DNA of 64,000 bases from Patescibacteria group bacterium (GCA_018814875.1 JAHIYH010000040.1:1-64000); one strand, 5' to 3'; shown: positions 6,829-17,526, counted from the stretch's first letter. Notes: generated by a model not told the origin, from the sequence alone. A program made the numbers and translations.

Positions 6829-6913
6829 GCCGGAGTGGCGGAATTGGTAGACGCGCACGACTCAAAATCGTGTACCGCAAGGTGTGAGGGTTCAATTCCC
6901 TCCTCCGGCACCA
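6829..6913 (+). tRNA. tRNA-Leu (anticodon CAA), CCA encoded
   Basis: Acceptor gccggag/ctccggc, anticodon arm cacga-ctcaaaa-tcgtg, long variable arm, T arm gggttcaattccc, then acca. Confidence 0.95.
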
Positions 6914-7136: not shown

Positions 7137-7397
7137 ATGGCTTTTTCTGTTTACGTAATCGAACTTATTGATAAATCCTACTATGTAGGATTCACAAACA
7201 ATTTATCAAGAAGGCTAAAACAGCATGAAGAAGGAACTGCATGTGCACACACTAAGAAAATCCCTTTTAAAAAATTATTATGGACCGAACAACAGTATGA
7301 CCGAAGATCTGCCAGAGCTCGAGAAAAAGAAATTAAAGGATGGAGAAGAGAAAAAAAGGAAAACCTATGGAAACATGAGGGTTCAAGCTTGCCCTGA
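7137..7397 (+). CDS. GIY-YIG nuclease-like protein
   Basis: VYVIELIDKSYYVGFTNNLSRRLKQHEEG; start placed at MAFSVYV because upstream ORF residues are encoded by the 54-bp repeat. Confidence 0.85.
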   Translation: MAFSVYVIELIDKSYYVGFTNNLSRRLKQHEEGTACAHTKKIPFKKLLWTEQQYDRRSARAREKEIKGWRREKKENLWKHEGSSLP

Positions 7398-7468
7398 AGC
7401 GTGACCGAAGGGCTTATCCTGAAACGTGACCGAGTGGCTTGCCCTGAGGAGTAGCAGACGACGAAGGG

Positions 7469-7501
7469 TCCCTCCTCCGGCACCATTCGTCGCCCCGCTT
7501 A
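7469..7501. repeat. 33-bp direct repeat, copy 2 (tRNA-Leu 3' fragment)
   Basis: Identical to 6897-6929. Confidence 0.95.
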
Positions 7502-12340: not shown

Positions 12341-12703
12341 CTATTCTACAACTGGTTCTTCATCTGCTGGTTCTTCTTCAGATGGTTCTTCTTCAGATGG
12401 TTCTTCTTCTGCAGGCTCCTCTTCAGCTGGTTCCTCGGCTGTTGGTTCCTCTGCTGCTGGATCTTCTTCTGCAGGCTCCTCTTCAGATGGTTCTTCATCT
12501 GCTGGTTCTTCTTCTGCAGGCTCCTCTTCAGCTGGTTCTTCATCTGCAGGCTCCTCTTCAGATGGTTCTTCATCTGCTGGTTCCTCGGCTGTTGGTTCCT
12601 CTGCTGCTGGCTCTTTGCCATCTTTATCAAGATCAACAGAAACTGTGCAAGCACTAAGCAATACCAAACCGGCAATTGCTGCTATATATTTGAATGATTT
12701 CAT
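12341..12703 (-). CDS. Putative lipoprotein with acidic EEPxx repeats
   Basis: Signal peptide and lipobox (GLVLLSAC) followed by low-complexity AEEPSEEEPADEEP; start placed at MKSFKY. Confidence 0.7.
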   Translation of the reverse strand: MKSFKYIAAIAGLVLLSACTVSVDLDKDGKEPAAEEPTAEEPADEEPSEEEPADEEPAEEEPAEEEPADEEPSEEEPAEEDPAAEEPTAEEPAEEEPAEEEPSEEEPSEEEPADEEPVVE

Positions 12704-12916
12704 AAAAAGTAAGTGGAAAGAGATATCACAGTAATAGTACGTCATGGTCAAAACATGATGCAATGGAAAAAATCCACAGTTCTGCCCTATGCCATTTTTC
12801 AGCTATTTGCTACTCTAAAGCTATCGCCACGGTCCCACACCAATCGCTTTGCTCCTGTGCGGGACGAGTAACTCATGCACTACATATTCTCGCTCCTTTT
12901 TCTCCATTATATTCAT

Positions 12917-12993
12917 GCCACGGTAGCTCAGTTGGTTAGAGCACGGGACTCATAAGCCCGGGGTCGCTGGTTCAAATCCAGCCCGTGGCACCA
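12917..12993 (+). tRNA. tRNA-Met-type (anticodon CAU), elongator-like, CCA encoded
   Basis: gccacgg/ccgtggc acceptor with paired G1-C72, loop ctcataa, T arm ctggttcaaatccag. Confidence 0.93.
12976..12993. repeat. 18-bp direct repeat, copy 1 (tRNA-Met 3' end)
   Basis: atccagcccgtggcacca is identical to 16943-16960. Confidence 0.93.
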
Positions 12994-13008
12994 TACGTGT
13001 TCAAAACA

Positions 13009-13338
13009 TCATAGTTCGGGTTTGGCGTCTCGTGATCCTATGATCGTCGGCGGTTTTCCCGTACATTCCCGAATTTCCATTCCGTCATGCGGACAGTTAA
13101 TGATGCGAAAATTCTCGAAATGACAACGTATAAAATCAACATGATCGAGAGCTATATTTTCAAAATCTGTCTCAAAGAAGGAGCAGCCCTCAAAGGTCGA
13201 GCCCGTAAGACTTCCTCCTCTCACGTGCGCATTGCGAAATTCCTTATTCTTCCAAGGAAAATCCAGTACTGAATTATCTGGTATCTCAAAATCTCCAGTA
13301 ATTTGAGCAGAATCGAGTGCGGAATCGAGGTATTGCAT
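13009..13338 (-). CDS. Pentapeptide-repeat-like small protein
   Basis: RGGSLTGSTFEGCSFFETDFENIALDHVDFIRCHFENFRI pattern; start placed at MQYLDSA. Confidence 0.65.
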   Translation of the reverse strand: MQYLDSALDSAQITGDFEIPDNSVLDFPWKNKEFRNAHVRGGSLTGSTFEGCSFFETDFENIALDHVDFIRCHFENFRIINCPHDGMEIRECTGKPPTIIGSRDAKPEL

Positions 13339-13340
13339 AC

Positions 13341-13370
13341 TTGACAAGTATAGAGAGAGAGACGTAGGAT
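13341..13370 (+). promoter_or_regulatory. Putative promoter TTGACA-N18-TAGGAT with (GA) tract in spacer
   Basis: ttgaca at 13341-13346, taggat at 13365-13370, spacer contains gagagagaga. Confidence 0.5.
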
Positions 13371-13446
13371 AGCAAGCTAAATCGCAAGATTTGGGATGAG
13401 AGCAGTTCTTTGAAATGTAATCCGAGGGGAAAGGAGGTGAGAACCT

Positions 13447-13650
13447 ATGGCAGACCCTCAACGTCTTTCGGATGGTACGTACATGTACCCGATCCCTGGC
13501 AAGCCCAACATCCACACCGACCACTACCATGTGGCGGCGGATGGGACCATCCTCTCCGTAAAGGAGAATGGTCAGCACAGCTACAGCCGTGCTGAAGTGC
13601 GCCGCAAGATCAACGATGTGACGGGGATGGCTTTTCCTCCTCGTTACTAA
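13447..13650 (+). CDS. Small hypothetical protein (67 aa)
   Basis: Strong Shine-Dalgarno (aaaggaggtgag) upstream of ATG; followed by a rho-independent-type terminator. Confidence 0.75.
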   Translation: MADPQRLSDGTYMYPIPGKPNIHTDHYHVAADGTILSVKENGQHSYSRAEVRRKINDVTGMAFPPRY

Positions 13651-13685
13651 GCTGAGGTGAGCAGTGCAACTCACCACTGGATTGC

Positions 13686-13720
13686 TCTCTCGACCCACCC
13701 CCTCGGTGTGGGTCGTTTTT
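13686..13720 (+). terminator. Rho-independent terminator
   Basis: cgacccaccccctcggtgtgggtcg followed by ttttt. Confidence 0.85.
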
Positions 13721-13831
13721 ACGATTTGGCAAAACATACTGCAATCGTTCCACTTGCTTCATTTCCCTCACAGCAGCCATGTTCACCTCCATGATAACCA
13801 AGTATGATGTTTTCGACCCTGTGTGACCAAC

Positions 13832-13874
13832 CTCCGCAGGAGGTTGCCCGCCGTAGCCTTGGCGTAGGCGGGCT
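13832..13874. repeat. Dispersed palindromic element (aacctccgcaggaggtt + gcccgccgtagccttggcgtaggcgggc)
   Basis: Near-identical copy at 15762-15807; partial copy in rpsA at 61029-61056. Confidence 0.9.
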
Positions 13875-13948
13875 TTTGTCATATTTAAACACACGACCTC
13901 CTGCTACGGCTGGCAAGCCACGGGGCATTTTGATAGAATCGAGCACTT

Positions 13949-14188
13949 ATGTGGCATTACGTTTACATTCTCGCAAATGAGTACGGCAAACATTACGTCG
14001 GTCTTACCGACGATGTGAATCGTCGGTTAGCAGAGCATAATCGAGGATGTATTCCATCGACAGCAAAGTATCAACCATGGAAACTATGTCATTTTGCTGG
14101 ATTTCAGCATCGCACGAAAGCTGCTGAATACGAACAATATTTGAAATCTGGTTCAGGTAGAGTCTTCCACAACAGGCATCTACAATAA
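13949..14188 (+). CDS. GIY-YIG nuclease-like protein
   Basis: MWHYVYILANEYGKHYVGLTDDVNRRLAEHNRG. Confidence 0.92.
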   Translation: MWHYVYILANEYGKHYVGLTDDVNRRLAEHNRGCIPSTAKYQPWKLCHFAGFQHRTKAAEYEQYLKSGSGRVFHNRHLQ

Positions 14189-14192
14189 CCCC

Positions 14193-14639
14193 ATGATCGA
14201 GTATTTCACTATTACAAAACCAGAAGATATTGATGTACTGCGCGGAAAAACTGCTCAGTTTCGTAGTCTGAACATTCAGTATGACGATGAGACTCTACAG
14301 TACCTTAAAGACCATCTTCTTGATGAAGGCAATTTGTATCTTATTGCGAAAGAAAAGTACGCCTTTGCAGGCTTTTGCTCCATTGATTCTGACTGGTGGG
14401 GAAAAGGATTTCTCTTTTTGAGAGAAATCTACGTTGAACCGAGGCTGCATAAACAAGGTATCGGAAGTGAGTTGATGCGACGTTGCATAGTTCATGCACA
14501 AAATTGTGGTGTGGAAGGCATTGTTACCGAAACTGCCGTTGAAAATGTACCCATGCAGAAGCTCTGCAAAAAATTTGGATTTGAAGAATGGGAAAATACT
14601 GAATGGAAAGAAGGTATTACCTACAAACTCGTGTTTTGA
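14193..14639 (+). CDS. GNAT family N-acetyltransferase
   Basis: LREIYVEPRLHKQGIGSELMRRCI acetyl-CoA-binding motif and TAVENVPMQKLCKKFGF. Confidence 0.88.
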   Translation: MIEYFTITKPEDIDVLRGKTAQFRSLNIQYDDETLQYLKDHLLDEGNLYLIAKEKYAFAGFCSIDSDWWGKGFLFLREIYVEPRLHKQGIGSELMRRCIVHAQNCGVEGIVTETAVENVPMQKLCKKFGFEEWENTEWKEGITYKLVF

Positions 14640-14777
14640 ATCGCTCTGCAAACTTCATTCGTCTCACCACCCCAACTTTAACTTTCACTCCCACAATGTA
14701 GTAAGGATAATCCCCCGTACTACCATATCTGTCACCAGAGTGCATAACACTCTCGGTGACTTTGTTATGCTTGTGGA

Positions 14778-15185
14778 TCACAAAGCATTGCCCCATGAAT
14801 GCACTTCTTCCTTTGAAGGAAAGTGTTCAAGAAACTGACGCAGTAGTTGTAGTAGCTCATTCTTTGTCTTTTCATCGGGTTCAACATCCTTTGCAGGTAC
14901 ATCATCAGTGAGAGATTCGATCTTTGCACAATCTTCCATGAAGATTAAACAGGATGTTGGAACGTTCATTTGACGAAATATAAGACCTTCTGTGGTGATA
15001 GTTCCAGCATGAAAAGGGGAAAATATAGTAGAAAAAGAGCTGCGTCCTTCTTCGAGTAAATCAAGGATTGGGGTTTTTTGCTCAAGTGCGGATATCACTT
15101 GTTGAATTTCTTTTAACGCAATCCCATCGCCAAAGATGTGATCATAGCTATTAATTAATTTCTTCATATTTTCATGTGTACTCAT
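14778..15185 (-). CDS. Hypothetical protein
   Basis: 135-aa ORF of normal complexity; no family recognised. Confidence 0.6.
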   Translation of the reverse strand: MSTHENMKKLINSYDHIFGDGIALKEIQQVISALEQKTPILDLLEEGRSSFSTIFSPFHAGTITTEGLIFRQMNVPTSCLIFMEDCAKIESLTDDVPAKDVEPDEKTKNELLQLLRQFLEHFPSKEEVHSWGNAL

Positions 15186-15260
15186 AGTTGGAGTGTACGA
15201 CTAAAATGAGGACGGACGCAATGCGACCGCCCTCGGATTCCTTTCCGCCGTGACGTACTA

Positions 15261-15452
15261 CTAGTCGCGGTGAGACTTGATGAGGTTCCCATCTCCATCA
15301 AAGATGAAGTGGACTCCGTCGATCTTCTGATTCGACACGATCTGGTTCGTATCGCGATCATGTGTGAAGAAGCTCTCATCGACATTGTCACGACCAACGA
15401 TCTCGCGCACTTTCTTGCGGATCTTGGTCATTGCCTGGGACAGCTGAGACAT
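15261..15452 (-). CDS. Small hypothetical protein (63 aa)
   Basis: Start MSQLSQAM preceded on the minus strand by GGAGGTTTTGCG-ATG (strong SD). Confidence 0.7.
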   Translation of the reverse strand: MSQLSQAMTKIRKKVREIVGRDNVDESFFTHDRDTNQIVSNQKIDGVHFIFDGDGNLIKSHRD

Positions 15453-15507
15453 CGCAAAACCTCCAGTGAAAGGAACGATCCTCATATACGACATGTACAT
15501 GAGGTTG

Positions 15508-15545
15508 ATGATAGTGACAGAGAGAGAGAGAGAGAGAGATGTCAA
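15508..15545 (-). promoter_or_regulatory. Putative promoter TTGACA-N26-TATCAT with (TC)~10 tract in spacer
   Basis: Minus strand: ttgaca = 15545-15540, tatcat = 15513-15508, dinucleotide tract 15519-15539. Confidence 0.45.
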
Positions 15546-15761
15546 CAGGATTCATGCTCCAATCCACCTGCTTAGGTGCTTATTTTGCTTTTAGCTGAAA
15601 CATATTGTCATTCAGGCTTGAAGCAGACCAAGTCAGTCTACATCACCGTGGTTGGAGTGCGGTTTCATCAAAGCTATGCGTTCTTCCTTCGTCATTTCCC
15701 TGACATACGCCATTTTCCAGTTCACCAAGATCACGTAATATCGTTTACACCCCGTGCTACC

Positions 15762-15807
15762 AACCTCCGCAGGAGGTTGCCCGCCGTAGCCTTGGCGGAG
15801 GCGGGCT
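15762..15807. repeat. Dispersed palindromic element, second copy
   Basis: aacctccgcaggaggttgcccgccgtagccttggcggaggcgggc. Confidence 0.9.
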
Positions 15808-15824
15808 TTCTTAACTTCTCATCG

Positions 15825-16796
15825 ATGAAAAAACCCGAGCCCAAATTGCATCATTTCCTTCCGCAAAATTGTTACTTCAATGCGTTTGCTGCACCGGAAT
15901 TGTTAAATAACAAGTTAGCAATATGGGTACATACAGCCAATCAACAACCCCTGTGCCAGCAGATAGAAAAGACGGGAGCAATAAAAGAGATATATTCGAT
16001 TCGTGATGTGCATGTAAGATTCAACCGGGAATTGGAAAATATACTTGAGCGCATAGAAAGCAAATTGGCACCAATCATAAAAAAACTTATTAAGCAGAAA
16101 TCCGATGATGACTTTTCCTACTTAGAGAAAGAGGCCATTGCAACGTTTGTAGCCATGATGAAAGTACGAACTCCTTGGCATAAGGGATTGCTGACTGATG
16201 TTTTTAGTAAACTGAGGCAAGTTATTGCACTACGAAAGACTAACGAGAATCCAACTGGCATTTTAGAGAAAATTGTCGACAAGGATCATGCTTCTAAATT
16301 ACGGTGCGACACCGAGAGCATATCGGATGAAAAGCTGAGCAATTTCGAAGATTTTCTATCTATCAATAATCCCTTTTCACACAGCCTCTTGAGCCAGCTA
16401 AAAATCAACGCAAAAATTATTTATGAGCAAATGCAATGGGGATTTACCCTGTCACATCCTGAAATCCCTTTTATTACATGCGACAATCCGGTCGCCTGTT
16501 GTAGAGAAGATCATACACAGGTAGGAGTCGGATTGGCATTTCCGGATGTCACGATTTACTTTGCAGTTAGCCCAAAAATTGCATTCTACGGATACAAGGA
16601 TCCTACTATTGGAGTTCATCGATCAATCCCAACTCCTGTTACACAATTGAACAAGGAAGAAACGCAACTATTCAATTCAAGAACTGCAATCAGCGCATCG
16701 AAGTATCTGTATTCTGCTGACAGAGATATTGATTCAAAGTTGCAGACCATCTTGGATAAGAAATCTGCACTCGGGTTATTTAGTTGGCAGCGTTAA
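15825..16796 (+). CDS. DUF4238-like protein
   Basis: MKKPEPKLHHFLPQNCYFNAFA and ITCDNPVACC resemble DUF4238; start placed downstream of the palindromic element. Confidence 0.72.
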   Translation: MKKPEPKLHHFLPQNCYFNAFAAPELLNNKLAIWVHTANQQPLCQQIEKTGAIKEIYSIRDVHVRFNRELENILERIESKLAPIIKKLIKQKSDDDFSYLEKEAIATFVAMMKVRTPWHKGLLTDVFSKLRQVIALRKTNENPTGILEKIVDKDHASKLRCDTESISDEKLSNFEDFLSINNPFSHSLLSQLKINAKIIYEQMQWGFTLSHPEIPFITCDNPVACCREDHTQVGVGLAFPDVTIYFAVSPKIAFYGYKDPTIGVHRSIPTPVTQLNKEETQLFNSRTAISASKYLYSADRDIDSKLQTILDKKSALGLFSWQR

Positions 16797-16942
16797 TTTT
16801 CTAGTCGGTGGTAGTCGCTTTTCGACAACAAGAAGATATGATCTCTGGTGACCCTTCCCACCAGAATAAGATGACTTCCAAAAACACTTTTAGAATGTGT
16901 TATCTGCGAACTGGCACAGATGCGACGAAGCTCGCGAAGCCG

Positions 16943-16960
16943 ATCCAGCCCGTGGCACCA
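16943..16960. repeat. 18-bp direct repeat, copy 2 (tRNA-Met 3' fragment)
   Basis: Identical to 12976-12993. Confidence 0.93.
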
Positions 16961-17019
16961 ATCACAGTGTCCAATTCCTAGCATTTTGTTTGGCCATGAT
17001 GCAGATGTAGTATCTATAC

Positions 17020-17400: not shown

Positions 17401-17526
17401 GTTCGTTGAGCGGAAAAGAGCAAGTTCTTTGTTTGTCATAGCTCTCACTGAACCCATACTCACCTCCATCACAACCAAATATGATTTTTTAGTCCCTGTT
17501 TGACCAAAGCACAACACATCAACCTA

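Follow-up and report, generated by a model that had tools for sequence, protein, structure and literature searches.

The 3.97-kb block that follows the tRNA-Met gene in the DNA analyzed here (a stretch of 64,000 nucleotides from a Patescibacteria group bacterium, GCA_018814875.1, JAHIYH010000040.1:1-64000, hereafter the window) is, judging from comparisons with related genomes, a composite of several layered insertions rather than one island. It holds no recombinase gene. Our preferred reading, to which we assign a probability of roughly 0.6, is that elements of the serine-recombinase type most likely made part of the block and that GIY-YIG elements added its GIY-YIG/GNAT part. The tRNA-Met site is an insertion hot spot used by two kinds of tRNA-seeking mobile DNA in this bacterial group.

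The last 18 nt of tRNA-Met recur at the far end of the block

The insertion target is an intact tRNA-Met(CAU) gene (12917–12993, plus strand; ARAGORN and Rfam). Its final 18 nt, ATCCAGCCCGTGGCACCA, which run from the T-loop to CCA (12976–12993, +), have an exact second copy at 16943–16960 (+), so that the block is flanked by direct repeats of the tRNA 3′ end, as in tRNA-integrated islands. This is the repeat on which the original prediction of an island was built, and both copies were found where it had placed them. No third site was detected when the window was scanned with up to three mismatches (0 in 100 shuffles), and only the two exact copies exist across the window's genome (G000) and 58 relatives; the shuffles and this uniqueness rule out a chance origin of the repeat. 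Shortly upstream of tRNA-Met, the window also has a small ORF of secreted type that contains an acidic EEPAEEEPADEEP repeat (12341–12763).

The sequence downstream of 16960, ATCACAGTGTCCAATTCCTA, adjoins tRNA-Met directly in G014, a family member from another genus. There the intact tRNA-Met gene is followed by AATACAGTGTCCAATTCCTATCATTTT, and in the window the right repeat copy is followed by ATCACAGTGTCCAATTCCTAGCATTTT; the flank beginning ATCACAGTGTCCAATTCC (16961–16990, +) thus lies directly 3′ of an intact tRNA-Met in G014, with 88% identity over 43 bp. The 17-mer ACAGTGTCCAATTCCTA, searched with one mismatch permitted, has only two sites in 74 family genomes, one just 3′ of the repeat copy in the window and the other just 3′ of tRNA-Met in G014. 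An empty site joining tRNA-Met to the sequence after 16960, which the original prediction had named as a check, is therefore represented by G014, in another genus and over about 40 bp. None of the genomes compared was a closely related strain with an empty site; G001, from the same genus, was considered and rejected because a different small insert and flank occupy that position. These comparisons indicate that the right 18-bp copy is the insertion boundary and carries the original downstream flank, and we consider it very probable that the block entered at the 3′ end of tRNA-Met and that the displaced tRNA end lies on its far side.

An exporter gene and an abhydrolase gene flank tRNA-Met in many family members, in either orientation and with variable content. 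In 11 of 74 family genomes, CCCGTGRCACCA recurs on the same strand within 14 kb, at 112 bp to 13.7 kb from its first copy; in one of them, G012, small MNT and HEPN genes are enclosed by an exact duplication of the tRNA-Met 3′ end. When tRNA tails were compared with the sequence within 20 kb, all 25 near-exact copies (one tRNA-Cys being counted twice) lay downstream on the same strand. A looser scan of 173 tRNAs scored no inverted copy; 23 downstream copies ended at the last base of the tRNA, and upstream copies mostly started at its first. The fragments often break at or near the T-loop TTCRA (within 4 nt in 9 of 23), which is also the starting point of the window repeat.

Other tRNA-like copies were encountered as well. 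Second tRNA-Met-like copies at L080, L075, L076 and L050 have the D-arm region replaced by a hairpin, an A-rich linker and a hairpin, and those at L080 form 130-bp tandem units; such copies could be structured RNA or decay. At L208 (1650–2180), a GIY-YIG ORF lies among tandem tRNA-like units that are upstream of tRNA-Met and have TCCCGATTAAAATCGGGA in place of the anticodon arm.

Modules of the block recur separately in relatives

The gene list of the original prediction holds with small corrections. Assignments are firm for a small GIY-YIG nuclease ORF (13949–14188, +; Pfam 6e-16), a GNAT acetyltransferase (14193–14639, +; Pfam 4e-17) and a DUF4238 protein gene (15825–16796, +; Pfam 8e-31). 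The pentapeptide-repeat match (13009–13341, minus strand, within an ORF at 13009–13737) is weak: of three Pfam pentapeptide models, PF00805 alone exceeded the curated cut-off (22.0 against 20.2 bits), and the gene itself probably extends only over about 13009–13341. ORFs of 67 aa (13447–13650, +), 135 aa (14778–15185, −) and 94 aa (15261–15545, −) matched no Pfam family; a GA microsatellite lies at 15519–15540, at the start of the last. In agreement with the absence of a recognizable integrase noted at the outset, no recombinase was found among the block ORFs tested against Pfam, and whole-genome searches placed the tyrosine and large serine recombinases of G000 on other contigs.

Internal junctions of the block fall at ACCA sites, at 13829, 14725, 15762 and 16863. 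The first module end (13776–13829), finishing CCCTGTGTGACCA, is 85% identical to one at the tRNA-Met locus of G064; a leader sequence ending in GACCA and homologous to the G064 copy is present both here and at 17441–17506. Right after this ACCA begins a hairpin block (13830–13920, +), which in G002 sits between the CCA of tRNA-Gly(tcc) and a GIY-YIG ORF and which is present in G004 too. The GIY-YIG/GNAT part stops at 14725 with the module end CCCCCGTACTACCA (14712–14725, +). Copies of its GNAT portion lie directly 3′ of tRNA-Met in G004 and G091 (78–81% DNA identity), and G001 has a GIY-GNAT pair behind tRNA-Arg (GNAT 53% identical in amino acids). The third junction closes the remnant of a SET-gene module end (15676–15762), finishing CCCGTGCTACCA and 83% identical to G035. 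A second CCCGTGGCACCA in G035 was considered as a plain tRNA copy and rejected, being part of the conserved module end that corresponds to this remnant. A 1.63-kb segment shared by G009 and G035 (86% identity) is directly 3′ of tRNA-Met in G009 but separated from it in G035 by an intervening 856-bp part, and in other genera the GIY-GNAT part and the DUF4238 part recur apart behind tRNA-Met.

Across tRNA-Met loci, matches were restricted to accessory sequence by removing conserved neighbor genes. Match ends then lay within 2 bp of ACCA in 21 of 214 cases on the right and 25 of 218 on the left, compared with 1.8% of random positions (binomial p below 1e-9, though the ends are non-independent); there was little or no signal across all tRNA-Met loci when conserved neighbor genes were kept. 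Of the single integrated island with att-like ends proposed originally, the insertion at the tRNA-Met 3′ end and the displaced end on the far side are retained, and several layered insertions take the place of one. Relatives carrying the same genes without the second 18-bp copy had been named as evidence against an island; G004 and G091 do have the GIY-GNAT part at tRNA-Met without that copy, yet they have it without the rest of the block.

Arms of the DUF4238 part are shared with a recombinase-bearing element

A 2.1-kb part of the block that carries DUF4238 (14726–16863) is bounded by inverted arms, GTCACCAGAG on the left, 5 bp past ACCA (14731–14740, +), and CTCTGGTGAC on the right (16843–16852, +), the latter followed by CCTTCCCACCA up to 16863. 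Both G067 and G070 have the left arm at +6 relative to tRNA-Met. In G070, both arms flank a 1.07-kb insert with DUF4238 alone, and the DUF4238 sequence starts 32 bp from tRNA-Met; the gene is 69% identical to that of the window in DNA and 67% in amino acids. In G067, the same arms bound a serine-recombinase element at tRNA-Met, the right arm lying about 10 kb from the tRNA. The inner part (14731/16843) therefore has the arms of a recombinase-bearing relative, as would a large serine recombinase element. The arms were searched for at the outer ends of the block (from 12994 and at 16942) and were not found there.

A further relative, G086, has a 13.7-kb island at tRNA-Met whose 19-bp repeat matches that of the window in extent. 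Unlike the window block, this island and the G067 element have recombinase genes: those of the G086 island encode a large serine recombinase and a tyrosine recombinase, and the tyrosine enzyme shares 46% identity with one at G000:C29. Between G086 and G067, the serine recombinases are 33% identical, and both end in YGVTGRD inside tRNA-Met, encoded on the antisense strand. Among the loci scored, taken from a family search plus extra loci, serine-recombinase ORFs ended within a convergent tRNA in 13 of 24 rows; as three loci are listed twice, this corresponds to 10 of 21 distinct loci. The tRNA genes that contain such gene ends are of many isotypes. Examples in G000 are recombinase frames that enter tRNA-Arg(cct) and tRNA-Arg(tct), and also tRNA-Gln and tRNA-Tyr, the last two frames being cut at the end of the segment analyzed.

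Small GIY-YIG ORFs adjoin tRNA 3′ ends

The GIY-YIG ORF of the block has the GIY-YIG domain with its signature residues conserved, as do free-standing GIY-YIG homing endonucleases. G000 has eight small GIY-YIG ORFs, five of which lie within 1 kb 3′ of a same-strand tRNA (p about 1e-7 under a uniform model). A second such ORF in the window (7137–7397, +) starts 224 bp 3′ of tRNA-Leu(caa) (6829–6913); a displaced 3′ fragment of this tRNA (7376–7485, +; TGAGGGTTCAA, hairpins, TCCCTCCTCCGGCACCA) is split by hairpin repeats in its T-loop.

Small GIY-YIG ORFs 3′ of tRNAs were on the same strand in 44 of 45 cases, and 12 of these 45 tRNAs had a downstream tRNA copy, in several cases directly after the ORF. 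In a sample of 20 relatives, 26 of 74 GIY-YIG ORFs were preceded within 400 bp by a tRNA on the same strand, and a further 11 were at contig edges. In a phylum sample, made up of best-scoring matches and hence non-random, with a few from the window's own class, 14 of 31 had a tRNA upstream and six more had one just downstream, all on the same strand. A literature search for a link between small GIY-YIG ORFs and tRNAs in bacterial chromosomes returned no description. SegB, a GIY-YIG enzyme of phages, has tRNA genes as its targets and cuts them at the motif RAWTSGAAC, which is the T-arm sequence in reverse complement (PMC13096335). In CPR bacteria, GIY-YIG ORFs are known from inserts in rRNA genes and were judged rare and not spread by homing, and tRNA genes are unmentioned in that study (PMC11270868).

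We also noted GIY-YIG ORFs in other settings. At L224 (around 1532–1813), one is inserted in a 5S rRNA gene, together with a direct duplication of about 50 bp, and at L200 (around 1501–1758), one lies within an insert of a 23S rRNA gene. The GIY-YIG frame at L232:1295-1867 reads across a tRNA-Lys fragment and has its own start repeated.

The original prediction had raised a role for the GIY-YIG enzyme in mobilization. This idea is now better founded, because small GIY-YIG ORFs adjoin tRNA 3′ ends phylum-wide. The ORF of the block, however, lies 956 bp from tRNA-Met, behind another module, and is therefore no obvious source of the outer 18-bp repeat.

Discussion

We favor recombinase-type integration for the outer and arm-bounded parts of the block and GIY-YIG settlement for the GIY-GNAT part. 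The outer boundary would be an att-like repeat formed by the last 18 nt of the tRNA, from T-loop to CCA. The block, or at least some of it and in particular the 2.1-kb DUF4238 part between the arms, was most likely built by elements of the large-serine-recombinase type, whose recombinase may have been lost or may act from another locus. Small GIY-YIG elements, which appear to settle after tRNA CCA ends phylum-wide, would have added the GIY-YIG/GNAT part. As the block holds no recombinase, its movement in trans is plausible; the serine recombinase as the joining enzyme, its action in trans and the order of events are what we infer from the shared arms and from the recombinase-bearing elements at the same tRNA in relatives.

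It is unlikely, in our view, that a GIY-YIG nuclease made the insertion itself, by a SegB-like cut in the T-loop and repair with a GIY-YIG-bearing donor that left an intact tRNA and a displaced 3′ fragment. The same-strand placement beside tRNAs, the tRNA copies downstream of the ORFs, the breaks near TTCRA and the position of the SegB target in the T-arm would all fit such an event. Nevertheless, no GIY-YIG ORF lies between the duplicated tRNA-Met ends in G012, G034, G069, G076 and G095, many GIY-YIG loci have no displaced copy, and the ORFs, at about 80–100 aa, are of catalytic-domain size and lack the DNA-binding domains that known homing enzymes have; the distance of the window ORF from tRNA-Met speaks against it as well.

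Serine integrases normally need just a 2-bp shared core. The 18–19-bp repeat is thus more typical of tyrosine integrases, and the G086 island has both enzymes. Classical tRNA integration by a tyrosine recombinase, such as that of the G086 island, and its later loss would be in line with the related enzymes in that island and in G000, and with the habit of tyrosine integrases of rebuilding tRNA 3′ ends and leaving cores of 25–76 bp (PMC8092301). Yet no tyrosine recombinase adjoins a tRNA-Met boundary in the loci examined, and what the inner junctions share, little more than ACCA, varies too much and is too short to be a core of this kind, which makes this origin quite improbable. A tandem duplication of tRNA-Met, with decay of the second copy and unrelated genes drifting in between, finds parallels in the short-range decayed second copies of G034, G069, G076 and G095, but is very improbable given the strong polarity of the fragments and the better fit of module exchange and the G014 junction to insertion.

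The composite insertion that we prefer resembles several known systems in part. Like islands and prophages integrated by a tyrosine integrase, for example in Mycobacterium abscessus (PMC8092301), it sits at a tRNA 3′ end, leaves the tRNA intact and has a displaced 3′ fragment at its far end; it differs in having no integrase and layered modules, and the recombinase beside this tRNA in relatives is a large serine recombinase. With large serine recombinase elements it shares the arms, the short junctions and a recombinase at the same tRNA in relatives, but the recombinase genes here end inside tRNA genes, and the window part consists of arms and cargo only. SegB, a free-standing GIY-YIG homing endonuclease of T-even phages (PMC13096335, PMC2988022), likewise adjoins tRNA genes and has its motif in the T-arm, whereas the GIY-YIG ORFs described here, known from sequence, are chromosomal and single-domain, in small-genome bacteria, and are accompanied by displaced tRNA fragments. 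The CPR rRNA-gene inserts (PMC11270868) also carry small GIY-YIG ORFs in RNA genes and match neither group I nor group II introns; the window case is at tRNA genes. Finally, successive cargo modules behind a fixed anchor, with variable module ends, recall integron cassette arrays, but no integron integrase or attC sites were recognized in the block, and the Pfam search of its ORFs gave no IntI-type integrase at the array head.

A wider scheme is possible, and we offer it tentatively: GIY-YIG elements across the phylum might cut tRNA genes, restore the tRNA, displace a fragment and carry cargo, and the tRNA-Met block might be one that has grown to 4 kb at a site shared with serine-recombinase elements whose C-terminus is encoded by the tRNA antisense strand. 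The association of small GIY-YIG ORFs with tRNAs across the phylum, new for bacterial chromosomes as far as the literature searched goes, is directly testable. Collectively, our results point to tRNA 3′ ends as a common landing site for two different kinds of enzyme. If true, this would explain how bacteria with reduced genomes gain small cargo genes, such as toxin-antitoxin-like, acetyltransferase and DUF4238 genes, without an integrase at the site.
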